DNA of 36,718 bases from contig NZ_PJBZ01000077.1 in the NCBI RefSeq assembly GCF_002835995.1, positions 1 through 36,718 on the forward strand, written 5' to 3'. This stretch comes from Psychromonas sp. Urea-02u-13. Lineage in GTDB: Bacteria; Pseudomonadota; Gammaproteobacteria; Enterobacterales; Psychromonadaceae. The notes beneath the pieces are model-generated. The model was given only the letters and a program-made list of their open reading frames with translations, did not search any database and had not been told where the DNA came from. Below, piece after piece: positions 15,195-32,171 of the stretch. How positions within the stretch are numbered: position 1 is the first letter of the stretch; each line of letters opens with the position of its first letter. The translations under genes and the position numbers were made by a program.

Positions 15195-16295
15195 GTGGAA
15201 TTATTAAGAATTGATTGTTTAGGTAAAGAGCTAAGATTAGAAGGCTCGATGGCCGGTTGGCAACAACTATTTTGGGGTGGTACCGTCGTTGCAGTGAAAC
15301 ATGCTTCGGCAGATAACCAAGGACCTTATACGCATACCTTTGAGCTAACCACACCAGTAGCAGACGAAGGTGAGCCCAATACGATTAACATTAGTCTTGA
15401 AATCGACCTTACTTGGCAACCTTTCTCACTAAGTTATCGATTACTGCAAGAGCAAAACGTGCTCACCGAAGGCAGTCGAAATACTAAAGATATTGAGCAA
15501 CAGGTCCCCGTCAAAACGATTGAAGTAAAACGTAAAGTGAGCATGGTGGGGCTAGCGTCTTTAGGTTTTAAGTTACTTAAAAGTGCCAAAGTCATCAAAG
15601 TTGTTTTAGCCGGCGCCAGTATTGCAGCTTACTCTTGGTTATTCTCTTTCCAATTTGCACTGGCGCTGATTGCCTGTTTGGTTTTTCACGAATACGGCCA
15701 TATTAAAGCGATGAAACATTTTGGTATGAAAACCAAAGGTATTTACCTGATCCCCTTTATGGGCGGGCTCGCGATGAGTGATGAGAAAATCAATACTCGC
15801 TGGCAAGATGTGGTTATCTCTATCATGGGGCCTTGTTTTGGTTTAATCATGTCGGTAGTCGCTTTAATCGCTTATTGGATAACCGGCGAAGCTTTTTTTG
15901 CAGGACTAGCTGCTTTTAATGCATTGCTTAACCTGTTTAATCTTCTGCCAATATTACCCCTTGATGGTGGGCATATTCTAAAAAGCATTAGCTTTTCAAT
16001 GAACAGCAAAGCGGGATTAATCGCGTGTATTGCCGGTGCCGCTATTGGCGTTTATTTAAGTTACAGCTTAGGTCTCGCATTACTGGGTTTTATGTTATTA
16101 ATCGGCAGTGCAGAGATTGTTTTTGAATGGAAAACGCGCCACCAAAGCCACCTTTTACCCCTTGATAGATATGGGCAGATTTTTTCAGCTGCTTGGTACT
16201 TTCTCACTGTCGGTGCGCTAATTGCTATTATCTGGTATTTAGCGGCGTCAGGAGATGAAATTCTTGCTTTACCTTTAAAAATATTACAAAGCTAA
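15195..16295 (+). CDS. M50-family membrane metalloprotease (site-2 protease family)
   Basis: This 366-residue protein has a soluble N-terminal region of about 140 residues, then five or six membrane helices. The zinc motif HEYGH is at 165-169 inside a helix, and the second motif PILPLDGGH supplies the third ligand, Asp257. These are the hallmarks of site-2 type intramembrane proteases. The N-terminal soluble part is not one I recognise. The start is GTG at 15195 with a weak AGAG ribosome site, and no ATG lies upstream in frame. The substrate is unknown. No PDZ domain is visible, so it is not a typical RseP. Confidence 0.85.
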   Translation: MELLRIDCLGKELRLEGSMAGWQQLFWGGTVVAVKHASADNQGPYTHTFELTTPVADEGEPNTINISLEIDLTWQPFSLSYRLLQEQNVLTEGSRNTKDIEQQVPVKTIEVKRKVSMVGLASLGFKLLKSAKVIKVVLAGASIAAYSWLFSFQFALALIACLVFHEYGHIKAMKHFGMKTKGIYLIPFMGGLAMSDEKINTRWQDVVISIMGPCFGLIMSVVALIAYWITGEAFFAGLAAFNALLNLFNLLPILPLDGGHILKSISFSMNSKAGLIACIAGAAIGVYLSYSLGLALLGFMLLIGSAEIVFEWKTRHQSHLLPLDRYGQIFSAAWYFLTVGALIAIIWYLAASGDEILALPLKILQS

Positions 16296-16444: not shown

Positions 16445-16461
16445 TTGTTACATTATAACAA
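16445..16461 (+). promoter_or_regulatory. Candidate Zur operator
   Basis: The palindrome ttgtta-catta-taacaa lies 99 bp upstream of the ATPase start. Its 15-base core, tgttacattataaca, differs by one base from the gammaproteobacterial Zur consensus core TGTTATANTATAACA. The flanking bases fit less well. Zur represses zinc-uptake genes when zinc is replete, so this operon is predicted to be induced by zinc starvation. The rest of the 16341-16559 gap shows no other clear signal. Confidence 0.7.
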
Positions 16462-16559
16462 TTACAACATGACTTAATGAATGTGTTGGCATTAAATGGC
16501 CACTAATATCTCCCTATTTCTGAATAATACACAGACCCAATTTATAAAGGTAACTAACA

Positions 16560-17261
16560 ATGATAAAGATTAATGACCTCTGTTTTTCTTGGAAAAATAC
16601 GCCTGTTATTAATATCGACAGACTACATATCCCAGTGGGTCAGCATCTTTTTATTGAAGGGCCAAGTGGCTCCGGTAAAAGTACCCTATTAAACTTACTC
16701 GCCGGTGTATTAGCACCACAGCAAGGTGAGATCTCTGTATTAGGGCAACCGCTAAGTGAGCTCTCGGGCAGTCAAAAAGACAGTTTTAGAGCGGATAATA
16801 TCGGTTTTATTTTCCAACAGTTTAATTTAATCCCCTACCTCAGCGTGATTGATAACATTACTTTGCCTTGCTCATTTTCTAAAAAACGGAAAACAAACGC
16901 GTTATTACGCGCAAATGGTGGCGACTTAAAAAGCGAGGCGATTCGATTATTAAATGCATTAGGGTTAGATGATAACGCCCTCTTTCAACGCTCAGTGAAT
17001 GAATTAAGTGTCGGCCAGCAACAACGTGTAGCGGCTGCTCGGGCCATGTTAGGCTCTCCAGAAATAATTATTGCCGATGAACCCACCTCAGCACTTGATA
17101 GCGAACACCGTCAGGCCTTTATTAAAACGCTATTTGAAGAGTGCCAAAAAGAAAATATCACCCTGATTTTTGTCAGCCATGATAAAAGCTTAAAACATCA
17201 CTTTGATCACTGTATCAATCTTCAAGAAATCAATAATGTAAATACAAAGGAGTCAGTGTAA
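16560..17261 (+). CDS. ABC transporter ATPase, LolD/MacB-like, of a candidate zinc-regulated system
   Basis: This 233-residue cytoplasmic ATPase has Walker A GPSGSGKST (34-42), Q-loop FIFQQFNLIPYLSV, signature LSVGQQQRVAAAR, and Walker B IIIADEPTSALD followed by the switch His in VSHDKSL. The signature has V in place of the usual first G, as in some LolD/MacB-type ATPases. AAGGTAA precedes the ATG. Its stop overlaps the next gene by one base (taATG), so the ATPase and permease are translationally coupled. With the permease and the DUF3299 protein it resembles part of the zinc-regulated zrg cluster described in Vibrio cholerae; this link is from memory of that cluster's make-up. Confidence 0.93.
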   Translation: MIKINDLCFSWKNTPVINIDRLHIPVGQHLFIEGPSGSGKSTLLNLLAGVLAPQQGEISVLGQPLSELSGSQKDSFRADNIGFIFQQFNLIPYLSVIDNITLPCSFSKKRKTNALLRANGGDLKSEAIRLLNALGLDDNALFQRSVNELSVGQQQRVAAARAMLGSPEIIIADEPTSALDSEHRQAFIKTLFEECQKENITLIFVSHDKSLKHHFDHCINLQEINNVNTKESV

Positions 17262-18994
17262 TGGCTATTTTACAATTGGCGTTAAAAAGCCTGTGGAACC
17301 GTAAGCTGACCTTTTTTATCACCCTATTTTCCATCGCAATTAGTGTGACCCTGTTACTCGGCGTACAAACCTTAAAAAATGAAACCAAAACCAGTTTCAT
17401 GAAAAGCATTTCGGGTACTGATTTGATCATCGGTGCACGTGGCGCGTCATCGCAACTGTTATTAAGCTCTGTTTTTCATATTGGTAATACCGTCAACACC
17501 ATTAAATATGATACTTATTTAACAATGAATGAATCCCCTGCCGTTGAATGGGCAGTCCCAATTTCATTAGGTGATTCACACAAAGGTTATACCGTGATGG
17601 CAACGGCATTAAACTTTTTTGAGCATTTTAGTTATGCTAATCAACAACAACTAACAACACAACAAGGTAAAATCATTGATGATATGTTTGCCGTGGTGAT
17701 TGGTGCTGATGTCGCTAAAAAACTTAATTATAAGATTGGCCAGCGCATTGTAATGACTCATGGGGGTGGTGAAATAGGTGGTCATGATCACGACAATATC
17801 CCCTATTTTGTTAGTGCTATTTTAGCGCCTTCGTTTACTGCGATAGACCAAACATTGATCATCTCATTAGAAGCAATGGAAGCGATGCATACCGATAATC
17901 ATGGGCATTTTGGTGCATTGCCTAATGAGCAAACTATCAGTTCAGAAGCCGAACATGAGGGTCATGAAGGACACAAAGCGCACGAAGATAAACATGAAAG
18001 TCATGAAGGACATCAGTCTCACGATAGCCATGATGACCACAAGGCGCACCAAGATACACATGAAAGTCATGAGGAACATCAGTCTCACGCTAGCCATGAT
18101 GACCACAAGGCACACGAAGATACACATGAAAGTCATGAAGGACATCAGGCTCACGATAGCCATGATGACCACAAGGCGCATGAAGATACACATGAAAGCC
18201 ATGAAGGACATCTGGCTCACGCTAGCCATGACGGCCATGATGACCACAAGGCACACGAAGATACACATAAAAGTCATGAGGGACATCAGTCTCACGATAA
18301 CCATGATGACCACAAGGCGCACGATAAACACCAAGGACATGAGCATCACGATGACCATGAAGCGCATGAAGGACATCAAGCGCATGATGATCACCAAGAT
18401 ACTGCCGAGCAACGTGTTGCTCGCCTATTTAAATTAAAACCGCAGAATATTAATGCCGTGTTTGTAGGTTTAACATCACCTCAAGCGGTTTTAGGTATGC
18501 AAAATTATGTCAATAACTTTCAAGATGAGCCTCTCACCGCCATTATCCCTGCACTGGCATTACAAGCGTTATGGCAATTCTTCTCTGTGGCTGAAGTGGC
18601 GTTAAACATTGTCACCGTGTTTGTTGTTTTAGTCGGTTTATTAGGCATGTTAAGCATCATTCTAATGAGTCTTAATGAACGTCGTCGTGAAATGGCTATT
18701 TTACGCTCAGTTGGGGCGCACCCAGGGCATATTTTTTCCTTGATTATCGGGGAAGCGGCTGCGGTTTGTTTCTCTGGTATTGTTGTGGGTGTGATGCTGT
18801 TATATGTTTTGTTATTTGTATTACAAGCCCCACTTGCGCAACACTTTGGCTTTTATTTAGACATTAATATGTTAAGTTCTAATGACTTATTAATATTAGC
18901 TGTGATTCAATTATGCGCATTAACCATTGCGATTATTCCCGGCTTACTGATTTACAAAACCTCATTATCCGATGGCATGAGTATTAAATTTTAG
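17261..18994 (+). CDS. FtsX/MacB-like ABC permease with a large periplasmic histidine-repeat loop
   Basis: This 577-residue inner-membrane protein has the FtsX-like layout: one N-terminal membrane helix (about 18-36), a large periplasmic domain, then three C-terminal helices (about 447-470, 492-525, 545-567) with the conserved NERRREMAILRSVGA loop before the third helix. The periplasmic domain contains an unusual insert (about 227-382) in which His recurs nearly every third residue, roughly 49 His in all, mixed with Asp, Glu, Gly and Ser. It is encoded by 66-bp tandem repeats. Short His clusters also occur before it (GGHDHD and DNHGHF). The insert should bind zinc or similar metals in the periplasm. 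FtsX-type permeases usually do not form import channels, so whether this system moves zinc or works on zinc-binding proteins is open. Confidence 0.92.
   Translation: MAILQLALKSLWNRKLTFFITLFSIAISVTLLLGVQTLKNETKTSFMKSISGTDLIIGARGASSQLLLSSVFHIGNTVNTIKYDTYLTMNESPAVEWAVPISLGDSHKGYTVMATALNFFEHFSYANQQQLTTQQGKIIDDMFAVVIGADVAKKLNYKIGQRIVMTHGGGEIGGHDHDNIPYFVSAILAPSFTAIDQTLIISLEAMEAMHTDNHGHFGALPNEQTISSEAEHEGHEGHKAHEDKHESHEGHQSHDSHDDHKAHQDTHESHEEHQSHASHDDHKAHEDTHESHEGHQAHDSHDDHKAHEDTHESHEGHLAHASHDGHDDHKAHEDTHKSHEGHQSHDNHDDHKAHDKHQGHEHHDDHEAHEGHQAHDDHQDTAEQRVARLFKLKPQNINAVFVGLTSPQAVLGMQNYVNNFQDEPLTAIIPALALQALWQFFSVAEVALNIVTVFVVLVGLLGMLSIILMSLNERRREMAILRSVGAHPGHIFSLIIGEAAAVCFSGIVVGVMLLYVLLFVLQAPLAQHFGFYLDINMLSSNDLLILAVIQLCALTIAIIPGLLIYKTSLSDGMSIKF
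17993..18328 (+). repeat. In-frame 66-bp coding tandem repeat (His-rich)
   Basis: About five head-to-tail units start at 17993, 18059, 18125, 18191 and 18266. The first three are exactly 66 bp (22 codons), the fourth has an extra 9 bp (one more His triplet), and the fifth decays into further His-triplet sequence to about 18400. Each unit encodes seven triplets beginning with His (HES HEG HQS HDS HDD HKA HED) plus one Thr. Units differ by a few substitutions. Length changes of 66 or 9 bp keep the frame, so the loop can vary between strains without breaking the gene. Confidence 0.95.
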
Positions 18995-19083
18995 AGTAGC
19001 AAAAAAATCAGTGTGACTATCTAGCGGTGGTTACGCTGATTAATCTAATGGCATCACATGGTAGGACGAAACTGCTTATATTA

Positions 19084-19118
19084 AGTATTGTTGTCAAAGG
19101 CCTGCAACTTACAATACT
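19084..19118 (+). promoter_or_regulatory. Inverted repeat between permease and DUF3299 genes
   Basis: Arms agtattgt (19084-19091) and acaatact (19111-19118) flank a 19-base loop in the 171-bp gap. No U tract follows. It may tune expression of the downstream gene or bind a regulator. Confidence 0.3.
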
Positions 19119-19165
19119 ATTCTATGACTATCAGATAAATGACCATTAAATTCCAAGGAAATAAA

Positions 19166-19837
19166 ATGAAAAAATTATTATTAATTCCATTTTTTTGTGC
19201 ACTATTTTCTGTCGCGCAAGCAGCAGAAACAACTGCGCCATTAAAAATAAATTTTACTGATTTACAAGGTAAAGTCGCGCCTTACAAAGACCCCTTTGAA
19301 AATTTAACAGAAGATCAGCTTTATAATTTATCGATTCATGCGCGTATTTTAGCGTGGCAAGAAGCTGCCCCAGAACAAGTCACAGAGGCGATGATAGAAG
19401 AGAGTGCCAAAGCAAAAGCGTTCTTAGATGAGCAAAAGATCGATATCGCCTACCTTTTTGAACAGCGCCTCATCATCATGGAAAAACGCCAACAAGCTTC
19501 GATGGTCACCAATGACCTATTAAAGAATAAAAACATAGAAATTGGCGGTTACATGCTAGCGCTTGAATTTGATGATGGTTTAGTTACCGAGTTTTTATTA
19601 GTGCCTACCATTGGCGCTTGTTCGCACAAACCCGTGCCACCAGCGAACCAATTGATATTAGTAAAAACCGATAAACCCATTGAAGCAGGCTCTCCTTATA
19701 TGCCTATTCGAGTCACCGGAAAATTGCTCACAACCGCACAGCAAAAAGACCTTTACCTAGTTGATGGCCAGAAAAACATTGCCATGTCCTACAGCATCGA
19801 TGGCGCAAAAGTAGAACCCTTTCTCGCAACACATTAA
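19166..19837 (+). CDS. Exported DUF3299 protein of the candidate zinc-regulated system
   Basis: The product has 223 residues from the ATG at 19166, chosen because AAGGAAAT lies just upstream and the protein then begins with a clean signal peptide (MKKLLLIPFFCALFS, cleavage after about AQA). The C-terminal half holds the DUF3299 pattern: GGYMLALEFDDG, then TEFLLVPTIGACSHKPVPP with the conserved C-x-H, then a small beta-barrel-like strand set. The domain is of unknown function; the Cys-His pair could bind metal. The gene follows the His-rich permease on the same strand and ends at a terminator, so it is the last gene of this operon here. I see no other zrg-like component in the window. Confidence 0.88.
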   Translation: MKKLLLIPFFCALFSVAQAAETTAPLKINFTDLQGKVAPYKDPFENLTEDQLYNLSIHARILAWQEAAPEQVTEAMIEESAKAKAFLDEQKIDIAYLFEQRLIIMEKRQQASMVTNDLLKNKNIEIGGYMLALEFDDGLVTEFLLVPTIGACSHKPVPPANQLILVKTDKPIEAGSPYMPIRVTGKLLTTAQQKDLYLVDGQKNIAMSYSIDGAKVEPFLATH

Positions 19838-19854
19838 ACGATAAGCACTTTATT

Positions 19855-19887
19855 AAAACGTAATGGATGATTCTGTTACGTTTTTTA
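19855..19887 (+). terminator. Rho-independent terminator after the DUF3299 gene
   Basis: Arms aaaacgtaa (19855-19863) and ttacgtttt (19876-19884) run into a T tract, 17 bp after the stop codon. The rest of the gap to 20126 shows no clear feature. Confidence 0.85.
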
Positions 19888-29705: not shown

Positions 29706-32171
29706 ATGTTACAACTTCAACCTGAAATAAGTACTCACCTCGAAAACGTAACATTACATTGGCAATTTGATCTCAAACATGGCCTTTTTGAGTGTGATAA
29801 AGCATTAGCGCGTTTATTAAATTCAGGTCAACAAAGTTTAACGTTACCACAGTTTTTTGCAGCCTTTGATCGTCGTCGAATAGCATCATTAAAAGCACAT
29901 TTTAAAGAGGTTATCGATCACCAAAAACCTTATGCAACTTCAGTATTAATCAACGTGACCGAGCAACGCTATTTCGTTAATTTGACTGTAGATTATGCAC
30001 GTAACAATAAAAGCGCCCTCGTCGGTAAAATTACTTTCTTACATTCTTTCCCGAGCCTTTATGAAGAGGAAGAGCTAGTAAAAATACTCTTCAACCGTGC
30101 CAGTAATGCGATATTAATAACCGATAAAAACCACTTCATCATTAAAGTAAACGAACAATTTTTGCGTAACTCAGGACATACACAAAATGAGCTGATTGGT
30201 CAGCCAGCAAATGTTTTTAAATCTGGCCAATACAGCCAAGAATTCTATCAAAAACTTTGGCACATCGTAGACACAGAAAATTTTTGGGCTGGAGAATTGC
30301 TGGCTAAACATAAAAATGGCGAAATATTTGCTAAAGAAGTGAAAATCCAACGTATCGAGCTCTCTGAAAATAACCATTTTTATATTTCAGAGTCTAAAAA
30401 ATTGGATTTTTCAACGCAATTTATCGTCGATAATCCACTCGACTTCCCCCTTAGTGCAAATACTTTACTCAATAAAACCGATATCACTAAAAGAATGCAT
30501 GAGCGATTTCAACAACTCACCAAAACAGAAACCATCGTGACAGCCGCATTTTCCGTACAATTATTGCAGAAAGTCAGTGATTCAATGTTGAAATGGTTAA
30601 TTTCACAACGTTTTTCAGAATCAAACTTAACCGGAAAAATAGGCCTAATTAGTGATGATACCTATATTGCTTTCTGGGTAGTTGAAAGAAATGCAGACAA
30701 AATTAATAATATATTACAGGAGGTGCAGAGCGATTTATCAGGGGGAGAACAAGCCAATGAATTAGACCTGCTTTCTATTATTAATATGGGCGTTTCCGTA
30801 CTGTCAATAGATGCAAAAAGCCCACAACAATTAATTAGCCACAGTGTGCAAACACTCATTACCAGTCCCAAAAAAGAGGCATCAACGATAAACTATTTTG
30901 ATCCTCGATTATCAAAACGTTTTAACAAAAGAAAAATCCTCTCTGGCTTACTCCATCGAGCTTTAAAAAATGAACAACTTGAAGTTTATTACCAACCCAT
31001 AGTGGATATGAAAAACATGTCGATTGTTAAATTTGAAGCGCTGATGCGCATCACATTAGACACGGACATAAGTTACGATACACAAGAATTAATTGAAATT
31101 GCAGAGCAATATGGCTGGGTCGATAAAATTGATATGAGTGTCGCGACTATCGCATTAAGAGACTTAAAAACAATCCGTCAACATTACCGTTCAGCAGAGA
31201 TTGGTATTGCTATTAACCGCTCTCTGTCTAACGATAAACTCGCTAACTGCTGCCTTTAAGATACACTGAAATTATTGACTCAATCAGATATTGACCTAAA
31301 TACCGTCACTATCGAGCTCACTGAATCCGCTTTGTTCGACAACCTTGATAGACAACAAGTGTGGGTAGAAAAGTTAAGAAAATTAGGCGTGAGTGTTGCT
31401 TTAGATGACTTTGGCACTGGCTATTCATCCTTTTCATACCTTAATAAATTACCCGTCAATATTGTGAAAATAGATAAGTCATTTGTTACCGACTTAACAC
31501 TTGATAGCACTGAATATTTGATGATAGAAATGTTGTGTCGCTTAACGCACAAGATGGGCGGTAAAGTCATCGCAGAAGGCGTAGAAACAGCAAGCGAATT
31601 ACTTTTATTATCCCGAGCAAAAGTAGATATGTTACAAGGTTATATTTTTAGTAAACCTATCAGCCTCAATAACATCCTCAGCAGTAGTAATAGCCTAGAT
31701 AAACCAGAATTATTAGCACTGTGTTATCAAGCACAACAGCCATTAGCCAGTGATGTTATGACTAAGGAGTTTGTTAGCATTTCAGCCGATGAGCGCTTAT
31801 TGGAAGCCAAGGAAGCCTTCACAGAACATGCCCTTACTTATCTCGTTGCTGTCGGTAATAAACGTTGCCGAGGTGTGTTAACCCGAGCAGATTTAGACAA
31901 AGCACTCAGTCCCTACCTTGATAGTAAAAGTGAACAACAAAGAGACCTGTTAACCTTAGATAAACGTATCCATCAAGTGATGCATAAAAAGTTTTATACC
32001 TTTCAGGAGCATGCTGCGTTGTCTGAAGTTGAAACGGTATTACGAGGCCAAACCGATGCCGTGATTATCATCAATAATGATTTAGGCCACTGTTGTGGTG
32101 TTATTACAGCACAGTTGTTACTGGCTTATTACCATACGCATCAGCAGAGAGAGTGTGAGAGTGAGACTTAA
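29706..32171 (+). pseudogene. PAS-(degenerate GGDEF)-EAL-CBS cyclic-di-GMP signalling protein, interrupted by one in-frame stop
   Basis: The reading frame continues unchanged from 29706 to 32171 except for a TAA at 31257-31259, codon 518. Without it the protein would have 821 residues. In order it has a PAS domain (about 130-225), a GGDEF-like region with no GGDEF motif, an EAL phosphodiesterase domain and two C-terminal CBS repeats. The EAL domain is split by the stop: KFEALMRI and IAINRS lie before it; ELTES, DDFGTGYSS, VKIDKSF, IAEGVET and LQGYIFS lie after it. All the usual catalytic residues are present, so the gene was probably functional until recently. An internal ATG at 31275 could start a 298-residue fragment lacking the EAL motif itself. 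Combining EAL with CBS repeats is uncommon. Confidence 0.85.

Follow-up and report, generated by a model that had tools for sequence, protein, structure and literature searches.

A ZrgA-less variant of the Zrg system with a histidine-rich permease loop in Psychromonas sp. Urea-02u-13

How might a Zrg-type zinc-starvation system work in a genome that yields no ZrgA? The question was raised by a 36,718-nucleotide stretch of Psychromonas sp. Urea-02u-13 (assembly GCF_002835995.1, contig NZ_PJBZ01000077.1, positions 1–36,718; hereafter the window). It carries a three-gene operon for an ATP-binding cassette (ABC) ATPase, an FtsX/MacB-type permease and a DUF3299 protein, with a Zur-like box 5′ and a terminator-like hairpin 3′ of the genes. 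By its sequence, the operon is a ZrgA-less variant of the known Zrg-type system, and it was filed as such and not as ZrgABCDE because ZrgA was not found. The Zrg system was known already; what appears new here is the absence of any detected ZrgA from the genome together with a long His-rich permease loop. We propose, with a probability of about one half, that the operon encodes a Zur-repressed zinc-starvation ABC system in which the permease loop takes over zinc capture from ZrgA. More tentatively, zinc capture may have shifted several times independently from ZrgA to such a loop, and the transporter would then serve as its own zinc binder.

The Zur-controlled zrgABCDE operon of Vibrio cholerae and V. 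parahaemolyticus includes the ZrgC ATPase, the ZrgB permease and ZrgE (PMC9820375, PMC9817125; these papers and the two on Pseudomonas aeruginosa below are cited from the portions of their text that were available). The operon of V. parahaemolyticus was up 76- to 206-fold when zinc was limited, zrgA was required for full low-zinc growth in both species, and operon function in V. cholerae depended on zrgA in a znuA background (PMC9820375, PMC9817125). The Zrg mechanism is disputed in print, between a ZrgA-fed zinc importer and a MacB-type exporter of pyochelin-cobalt. An earlier note on this DNA had described a Zur palindrome, an ATPase coupled by taATG to an FtsX-like permease with a His loop, and an exported DUF3299 protein, and all of these were found where it placed them. 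Its suggested kinship to the zrg cluster was borne out, since the genes match ZrgC, ZrgB and ZrgE. It had also inferred a zinc-scarcity system of poorly understood mechanism. The link to Zur and zinc stood at the sequence level, but such systems and their phenotypes were already on record for V. cholerae, V. parahaemolyticus and P. aeruginosa, according to the available text of those papers.

The ZrgC-like ATPase (16560–17261, + strand, 233 aa) matched ABC_tran with an E-value of 4.7e-31, and its best NCBIfam models were of the bacteriocin-export, LolD and FtsE types, every one under its cut-off. Its TAA stop codon shares one base with the ATG of the ZrgB-like permease (17261–18994, + strand, 577 aa), which matched FtsX (PF02687, E 2.2e-17) and MacB_PCD (PF12704, E 2e-11). 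The permease fold matches those of MacB, LolCDE and HrtBA, in agreement with the earlier view that this is not a classical import channel. A PDB sequence search with the first 210 residues gave a chance match only. Compared with 53 named homologues from beyond the Psychromonas clade, the permease was 34–48% identical.

The loop region of the permease (residues 216–395; 17906–18445, + strand) comprises 180 aa with 50 His and 48 Asp+Glu. Most of the loop consists of 22-aa tandem repeats, encoded by a DNA array at 17972–18324 with 5.2 copies of a 66-bp unit, and disorder was predicted over most of residues 223–372. Four histidines, H107, H167, H177 and H210 (codons within 17579–17890, + strand), were conserved without exception across the 56 permeases aligned and made up 4 of the 40 invariant columns (hypergeometric p 0.02); H210 sits at the base of the loop. 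The loop likely binds metal. One local match between it and the His-rich segment of ZrgA (E 0.009, low-complexity filter off) was put down to composition, and homology of the two was rejected.

The host genome (4.75 Mb, 320 contigs) was rated 100% complete, and a profile search of it for ZrgA (DUF2796, PF10986) gave no match; the binding protein that the earlier note had proposed to look for elsewhere in the genome was thus not found there as ZrgA. The PF10986 model matched none of 14 named control genomes; within the order it gave matches in 118 of 394 genomes, 112 of them over the cut-off. A congeneric genome (G217) has ZrgA, and its permease, adjoining zrgA, is of the short-loop kind. The permease was present in 143 genomes of the order, 108 with ZrgA over the cut-off and 35 without it. 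Among these 35, 27 were measured, of which 21 had a His loop and six a short loop.

Permease loci were sampled from the order (80 loci, covering 28 of the 34 other ZrgA-less genomes and 51 of the 108 with ZrgA) and from named GTDB genomes (the best 80 of 580 confirmed loci), and the window was added. Measurement was made in 156 of these 161 loci. One locus lay on the same contig as another (L159, with L080), two were cut by a contig end (L173, L234) and two had interrupted open reading frames (L103, L107). Three further loci whose ZrgA status was unreadable at a contig end (L109, L181, L191) were kept among the 156 and left out of the motif count and the pairs test below. All 115 ZrgA-linked permeases had a short loop of 15–39 aa with at most two His, and all 28 permeases with a His loop (at least five His in the loop) were without linked ZrgA; 14 of the 28 belonged to the Psychromonas clade. 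The His-rich loop noticed at first is not general to the family, being seen only where ZrgA is unlinked (28/156). Homologous clusters without His-rich segments, which the earlier note had set against its own view, do exist (115 ZrgA-linked and 13 others among the 156), possession of ZrgA being the apparent reason in the 115. A W-x-x-G motif directly after H210 occurred in 95 of the 115 ZrgA-linked permeases, in none of the 28 with a His loop, and in three of ten with neither.

Because the rows of this comparison are related, no weight was given to the simple Fisher test for ZrgA and the His loop (p ~1e-22). On the tree of the permease core, the His-loop trait changed state ten times (by gain or loss), at least seven times on well-supported branches, and a carefully built tree with 101 rows also gave ten changes. 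Among nine independent pairs that differed in the loop on supported branches, ZrgA differed the same way in none, the opposite way in a mean of 4.6, and not at all in 4.4. Among seven independent pairs that differed in ZrgA, the loop differed the same way in none, the opposite way in 4.2, and not at all in 2.8 (median p 0.125). The direction of the exchange between ZrgA and loop was consistent across the independent pairs. Neither this exchange nor ZrgA-less His-loop permeases were found as a topic in the literature titles and abstract openings covered, which exclude most subscription journals.

One exchange could be followed in two syntenic loci of a single genus, L092 and L132. Identity is 78% between their permeases, 79% between their ATPases and 58% between their DUF3299 proteins; it ranges from 68% to 94% for the MerC-like gene, the DUF1826-like gene and two flanking genes. 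In L132, zrgA lies between the merC-like and DUF1826-like genes, and the permease loop has 39 aa with one His. In L092, a gap of 112 bp takes the place of zrgA, and the loop has 47 aa with 11 His; the source genome of L092 (G194) gave no ZrgA match. In another lineage, Aliivibrio sp. 1S175 carries a Psychromonas-type set of ATPase, His-loop permease and DUF3299 protein (L158, 5309–8016). Its permease falls within the Psychromonas clade on the tree, and no Zur box was found 5′ of its ATPase. Horizontal transfer of this set is probable.

The regulatory part of the proposal concerns the Zur-like operator (13-mer GTTACATTATAAC at 16447–16459, + strand; 23-mer ATTTTGTTACATTATAACAATTA), which lies 100 bp 5′ of the ATPase start. 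The genome has two FUR-family genes, and the best model of the copy on contig C267 is the NCBI Zur model (146.8 bits, under the cut-off of 167 bits). The pattern GTTAYNNTATAAC was found at ten distinct places in the 4.75 Mb (14 strand hits), from which ~0.0006 matches would be expected in the 264-bp gap 5′ of the ATPase. Seven of the ten places adjoin genes of the Zur-regulon type or the window operon. They include two on C212 beside rpmE2 and one on C266 beside pyrC (both genes named by eye), one on C255 beside a 741-aa permease (PF03773, weak PF02535) and two on C320, where an AztD-like gene lies on one side and a gene set with a ZnuA-family protein on the other; for the remaining three places (on C246, C292 and C310), a role as Zur targets is not clear. 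By count, the pattern was not enriched genome-wide (14 strand hits versus 22 for the reversed control pattern), so that the case for the Zur box rests on its position and its conservation in relatives. When one mismatch was tolerated, five matches fell in the window versus 2.0 in shuffles, and 10 of 100 shuffles reached five.

A 23-column matrix was built from six other sites of this genome, with the window's box excluded, and gave that box a score of 23.3; the matrix is AT-rich. A strong Zur box was found 5′ of the ATPase in 12 of the 13 Psychromonas-type loci, the window included. The boxes in 11 of the 12 others (L078–L088) scored at least 18.9, and seven of these loci have two boxes. The lone exception, L089, comes from a genome that is 51% complete and had no such box 5′ of the ATPase. 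Shuffled loci gave seven matrix matches of at least 13 in 948,612 bases. Outside the Psychromonas clade, the link to zinc is better for four of the 14 His-loop loci than for the rest: a box scoring 17.0 lies 5′ of the ATPase in L097, L236 has a Zur box and a cobW-like gene (by eye), and in L160 (5986–9610) and L161 (5983–8309) a Zur-like gene comes after the His-loop permease and a Zur box separates them. A MerC-like gene (by eye) also follows in both, as does cobW in L160. The window operon is probably under Zur control, as the earlier note had it.

Two of the boxed loci deserve mention in their own right. On C320 (3474–3509; L016), the two Zur-like boxes mark what is likely a second zinc system of this genome, the AztD-like/ZnuA-family locus. 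The 741-aa protein on C255 (position 66011; L014, 2767–4992), beside a perfect Zur-like palindrome, joins an ArsP_1-type permease region (E 1.8e-23) to a weak ZIP match under the cut-off, and is possibly a two-part zinc transporter.

In the mechanism that we propose, zinc scarcity would cause Zur to leave the operator, a step that the sequence of the control region supports. The disordered loop, anchored at the invariant H210, would then trap periplasmic Zn2+ in the place of ZrgA, as the exchange suggests, and hand it to the permease core, whose candidate ligands are H107, H167, H177 and H210. ATP hydrolysis would shift the periplasmic domain, by mechanotransmission of the MacB/Lol type, and free the zinc for uptake. 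Uptake might be direct or might pass through the DUF3299 protein or an unlinked importer, and translocation is the least certain step.

Several observations weigh against this proposal. Permeases without linked ZrgA and without a His loop numbered 13 of 156 (in three of these, a contig end truncates the upstream side), so the loss of ZrgA does not require the loop. For loci from the named genomes, the search for ZrgA covered the locus itself, reaching at most ~6 kb to either side. In one genome (G282), a short-loop permease linked to ZrgA is accompanied by a further permease that lacks this linkage and has six His in its loop; in another (G365), the permease has a His loop, and ZrgA stands alone on a separate contig. 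Two genomes (G005, G319) have ZrgA, and neither a Zrg-type permease nor a DUF3299 protein was found in either; this weakens the view of ZrgA as solely the binding protein of that transporter. The sign test on the nine loop-differing pairs gave a median p of 0.0625, and independent cases were few. Of the 14 loci with a His loop that fall outside the Psychromonas clade, 10 contained no Zur box by the AT-rich matrix over the full length retrieved. To our knowledge, the FtsX/MacB fold has no known import channel. In V. cholerae, the His-rich loop of ZrgA was dispensable (PMC9820375, PMC9817125), which implies that a His loop alone may not substitute for the folded sites of ZrgA. The data from P. 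aeruginosa favour export (PMC11481552, PMC8561739).

The orphan ZrgA genes of G005 and G319 lie in similar clusters (L239 and L240, respectively), in the order CobW-like, DUF1826, ZrgA and Zur-like gene, followed by MerC in L239.

The P. aeruginosa data lead to the first alternative, which we consider unlikely: a MacB-type exporter that, at zinc scarcity, would export a metallophore or metal complex, with the His loop sensing the metal or stripping it. The fold agrees with this. In P. aeruginosa, the PA4064/PA4065 pair was termed a MacB exporter acting on pyochelin-cobalt, and pyochelin and cobalt accumulated on deletion of PA4065 in a znuA zrmB background (mBio 2024; PMC11481552, PMC8561739). 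The host genome has eight matches to condensation domains of nonribosomal peptide synthetases. However, the operon and the genes adjoining it contain no MacA-type gene, the ATPase and permease are separate, and zrgA mutants of Vibrio behave like uptake mutants (PMC9820375, PMC9817125). A search for an opine-metallophore dehydrogenase also gave no match, and its controls likewise gave none. The synthetase genes, which bear on this export hypothesis, were located on contigs C124 and C255 of the host, and on C124 one open frame extends over 4072 aa.

The second alternative, rather improbable in our view, is that the His loop would act as a buffer for zinc or as a gate, closing the transporter when periplasmic zinc is plentiful, while an unlinked Zur-controlled protein, such as the AztC/AztD-like pair of the host genome, delivers the zinc. 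This is consistent with the AztD-like and ZnuA-family genes beside the double Zur-like box on C320, with the negative regulatory role proposed for PA4063 (PMC9820375, PMC8561739), and with the mostly low zinc affinity of the His-rich loop of V. cholerae ZrgA (PMC9820375, PMC9817125). By itself, however, a buffer or gate leaves unexplained why His loops are restricted to loci without linked ZrgA. Least probable of the three is relaxed constraint, in which a former ZrgA-docking loop became free to gather repeats once zrgA was lost, its histidines having little function: the W-x-x-G distribution fits this, as does a tandem-repeat loop whose length differs within the genus (61–264 aa), but His-rich sequence is present at this loop in several separate lineages, and a short loop can persist without linked ZrgA (10 rows).

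If the loop does take over zinc capture, the loop base (H210 and W-x-x-G) would mark the docking site of ZrgA in ordinary Zrg systems. The exchange itself ties ZrgA functionally to the periplasmic domain of the permease and suggests such a site. Psychromonas offers a natural ZrgA-free version, and L092 and L132 a natural congeneric pair, for asking whether the periplasmic domain handles zinc. One His-loop set raises the question of metals other than zinc: in L097 (7491–10640), a Zrg-type set with DUF3299 and a loop of 129 aa with 34 His adjoins a resistance-nodulation-division pump that is CusA-like by eye.

The third gene encodes the exported, ZrgE-like DUF3299 protein (19169–19837, + strand, 222 aa; PF11736, E 1e-25). 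We judge an in-frame ATG at 19139 to be a less likely start than 19169. The conserved Cys-x-His seen at the outset was confirmed: the motif occurs in 143 of 144 DUF3299 proteins and is invariant in 32 of 32 aligned (C151-x-H153 here). The protein combines an oligonucleotide/oligosaccharide-binding-like barrel with an extra N-terminal three-helix segment (residues 48–111), which the Psychromonas-type proteins have in common with L158. A rough estimate puts most other family members, though not all, at ~30–50 aa shorter in this part. The only solved relative found was PA4066 (4hsp; phmmer E 1.8e-13, Foldseek E 1.5e-9).

The DUF3299 gene is separated from the permease gene by a spacer of 174 bp (18995–19168, + strand). 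The spacer measures 144 bp in L079 and 2–8 bp in 10 of the 12 other Psychromonas-type loci, and in L089 the DUF3299 gene is placed 5′ of the ATPase. The idea that the spacer is a repeated element was ruled out, as it has a single copy in the genome. The hairpin 3′ of the operon (19855–19884, + strand), taken at first for a terminator, is present, but it is one of six in the region versus 3.6 ± 1.8 in shuffles and so not clearly beyond them. The operon is flanked by genes for an amidohydrolase and for an M50-family membrane metallopeptidase (15195–16295), the latter immediately 5′ of it. Farther along, the EAL match of a PAS-EAL protein (29706–31256) spans only positions 4–92 of the 236 in the profile, and this domain may be cut short.

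Compared with zrgABCDE of Vibrio, the window operon has in common, as far as sequence goes, an adjacent ZrgC-like ATPase and a ZrgB-like MacB-like permease with four transmembrane segments, a ZrgE (DUF3299) and a Zur operator. It differs in that the host genome yields no ZrgA, and in its loop: 180 aa, 50 of them His, where the ZrgA-linked permeases measured have 15–39 aa and at most two His. A candidate for ZrgD (DUF2607), which is missing from V. fischeri and P. profundum (PMC9820375, PMC9817125), was not seen: apart from overlaps of the permease, there is no further + strand open reading frame of at least 60 aa between the three genes, though no genome-wide search was made. With PA4064–PA4066 of P. 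aeruginosa it shares homologous ATPase, permease and DUF3299 proteins and Zur control; there, however, PA4063 is a ZrgA homologue, and the cluster is proposed to export pyochelin-cobalt. The ZnuABC and AztABCD cluster A-I zinc importers use another permease type. The window system resembles them in a Zur-controlled response to zinc scarcity, but its operon has no cluster A-I binding protein. With MacB, LolCDE and HrtBA it shares a permease of the mechanotransmission ABC fold. MacB, however, has its ATPase fused N-terminally to the permease, whereas the two are separate reading frames in the window, where no MacA adaptor was found in the operon or adjoining genes, the part of the genome searched. 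The His-rich loop and the Zur-like operator set the window system apart from all three.

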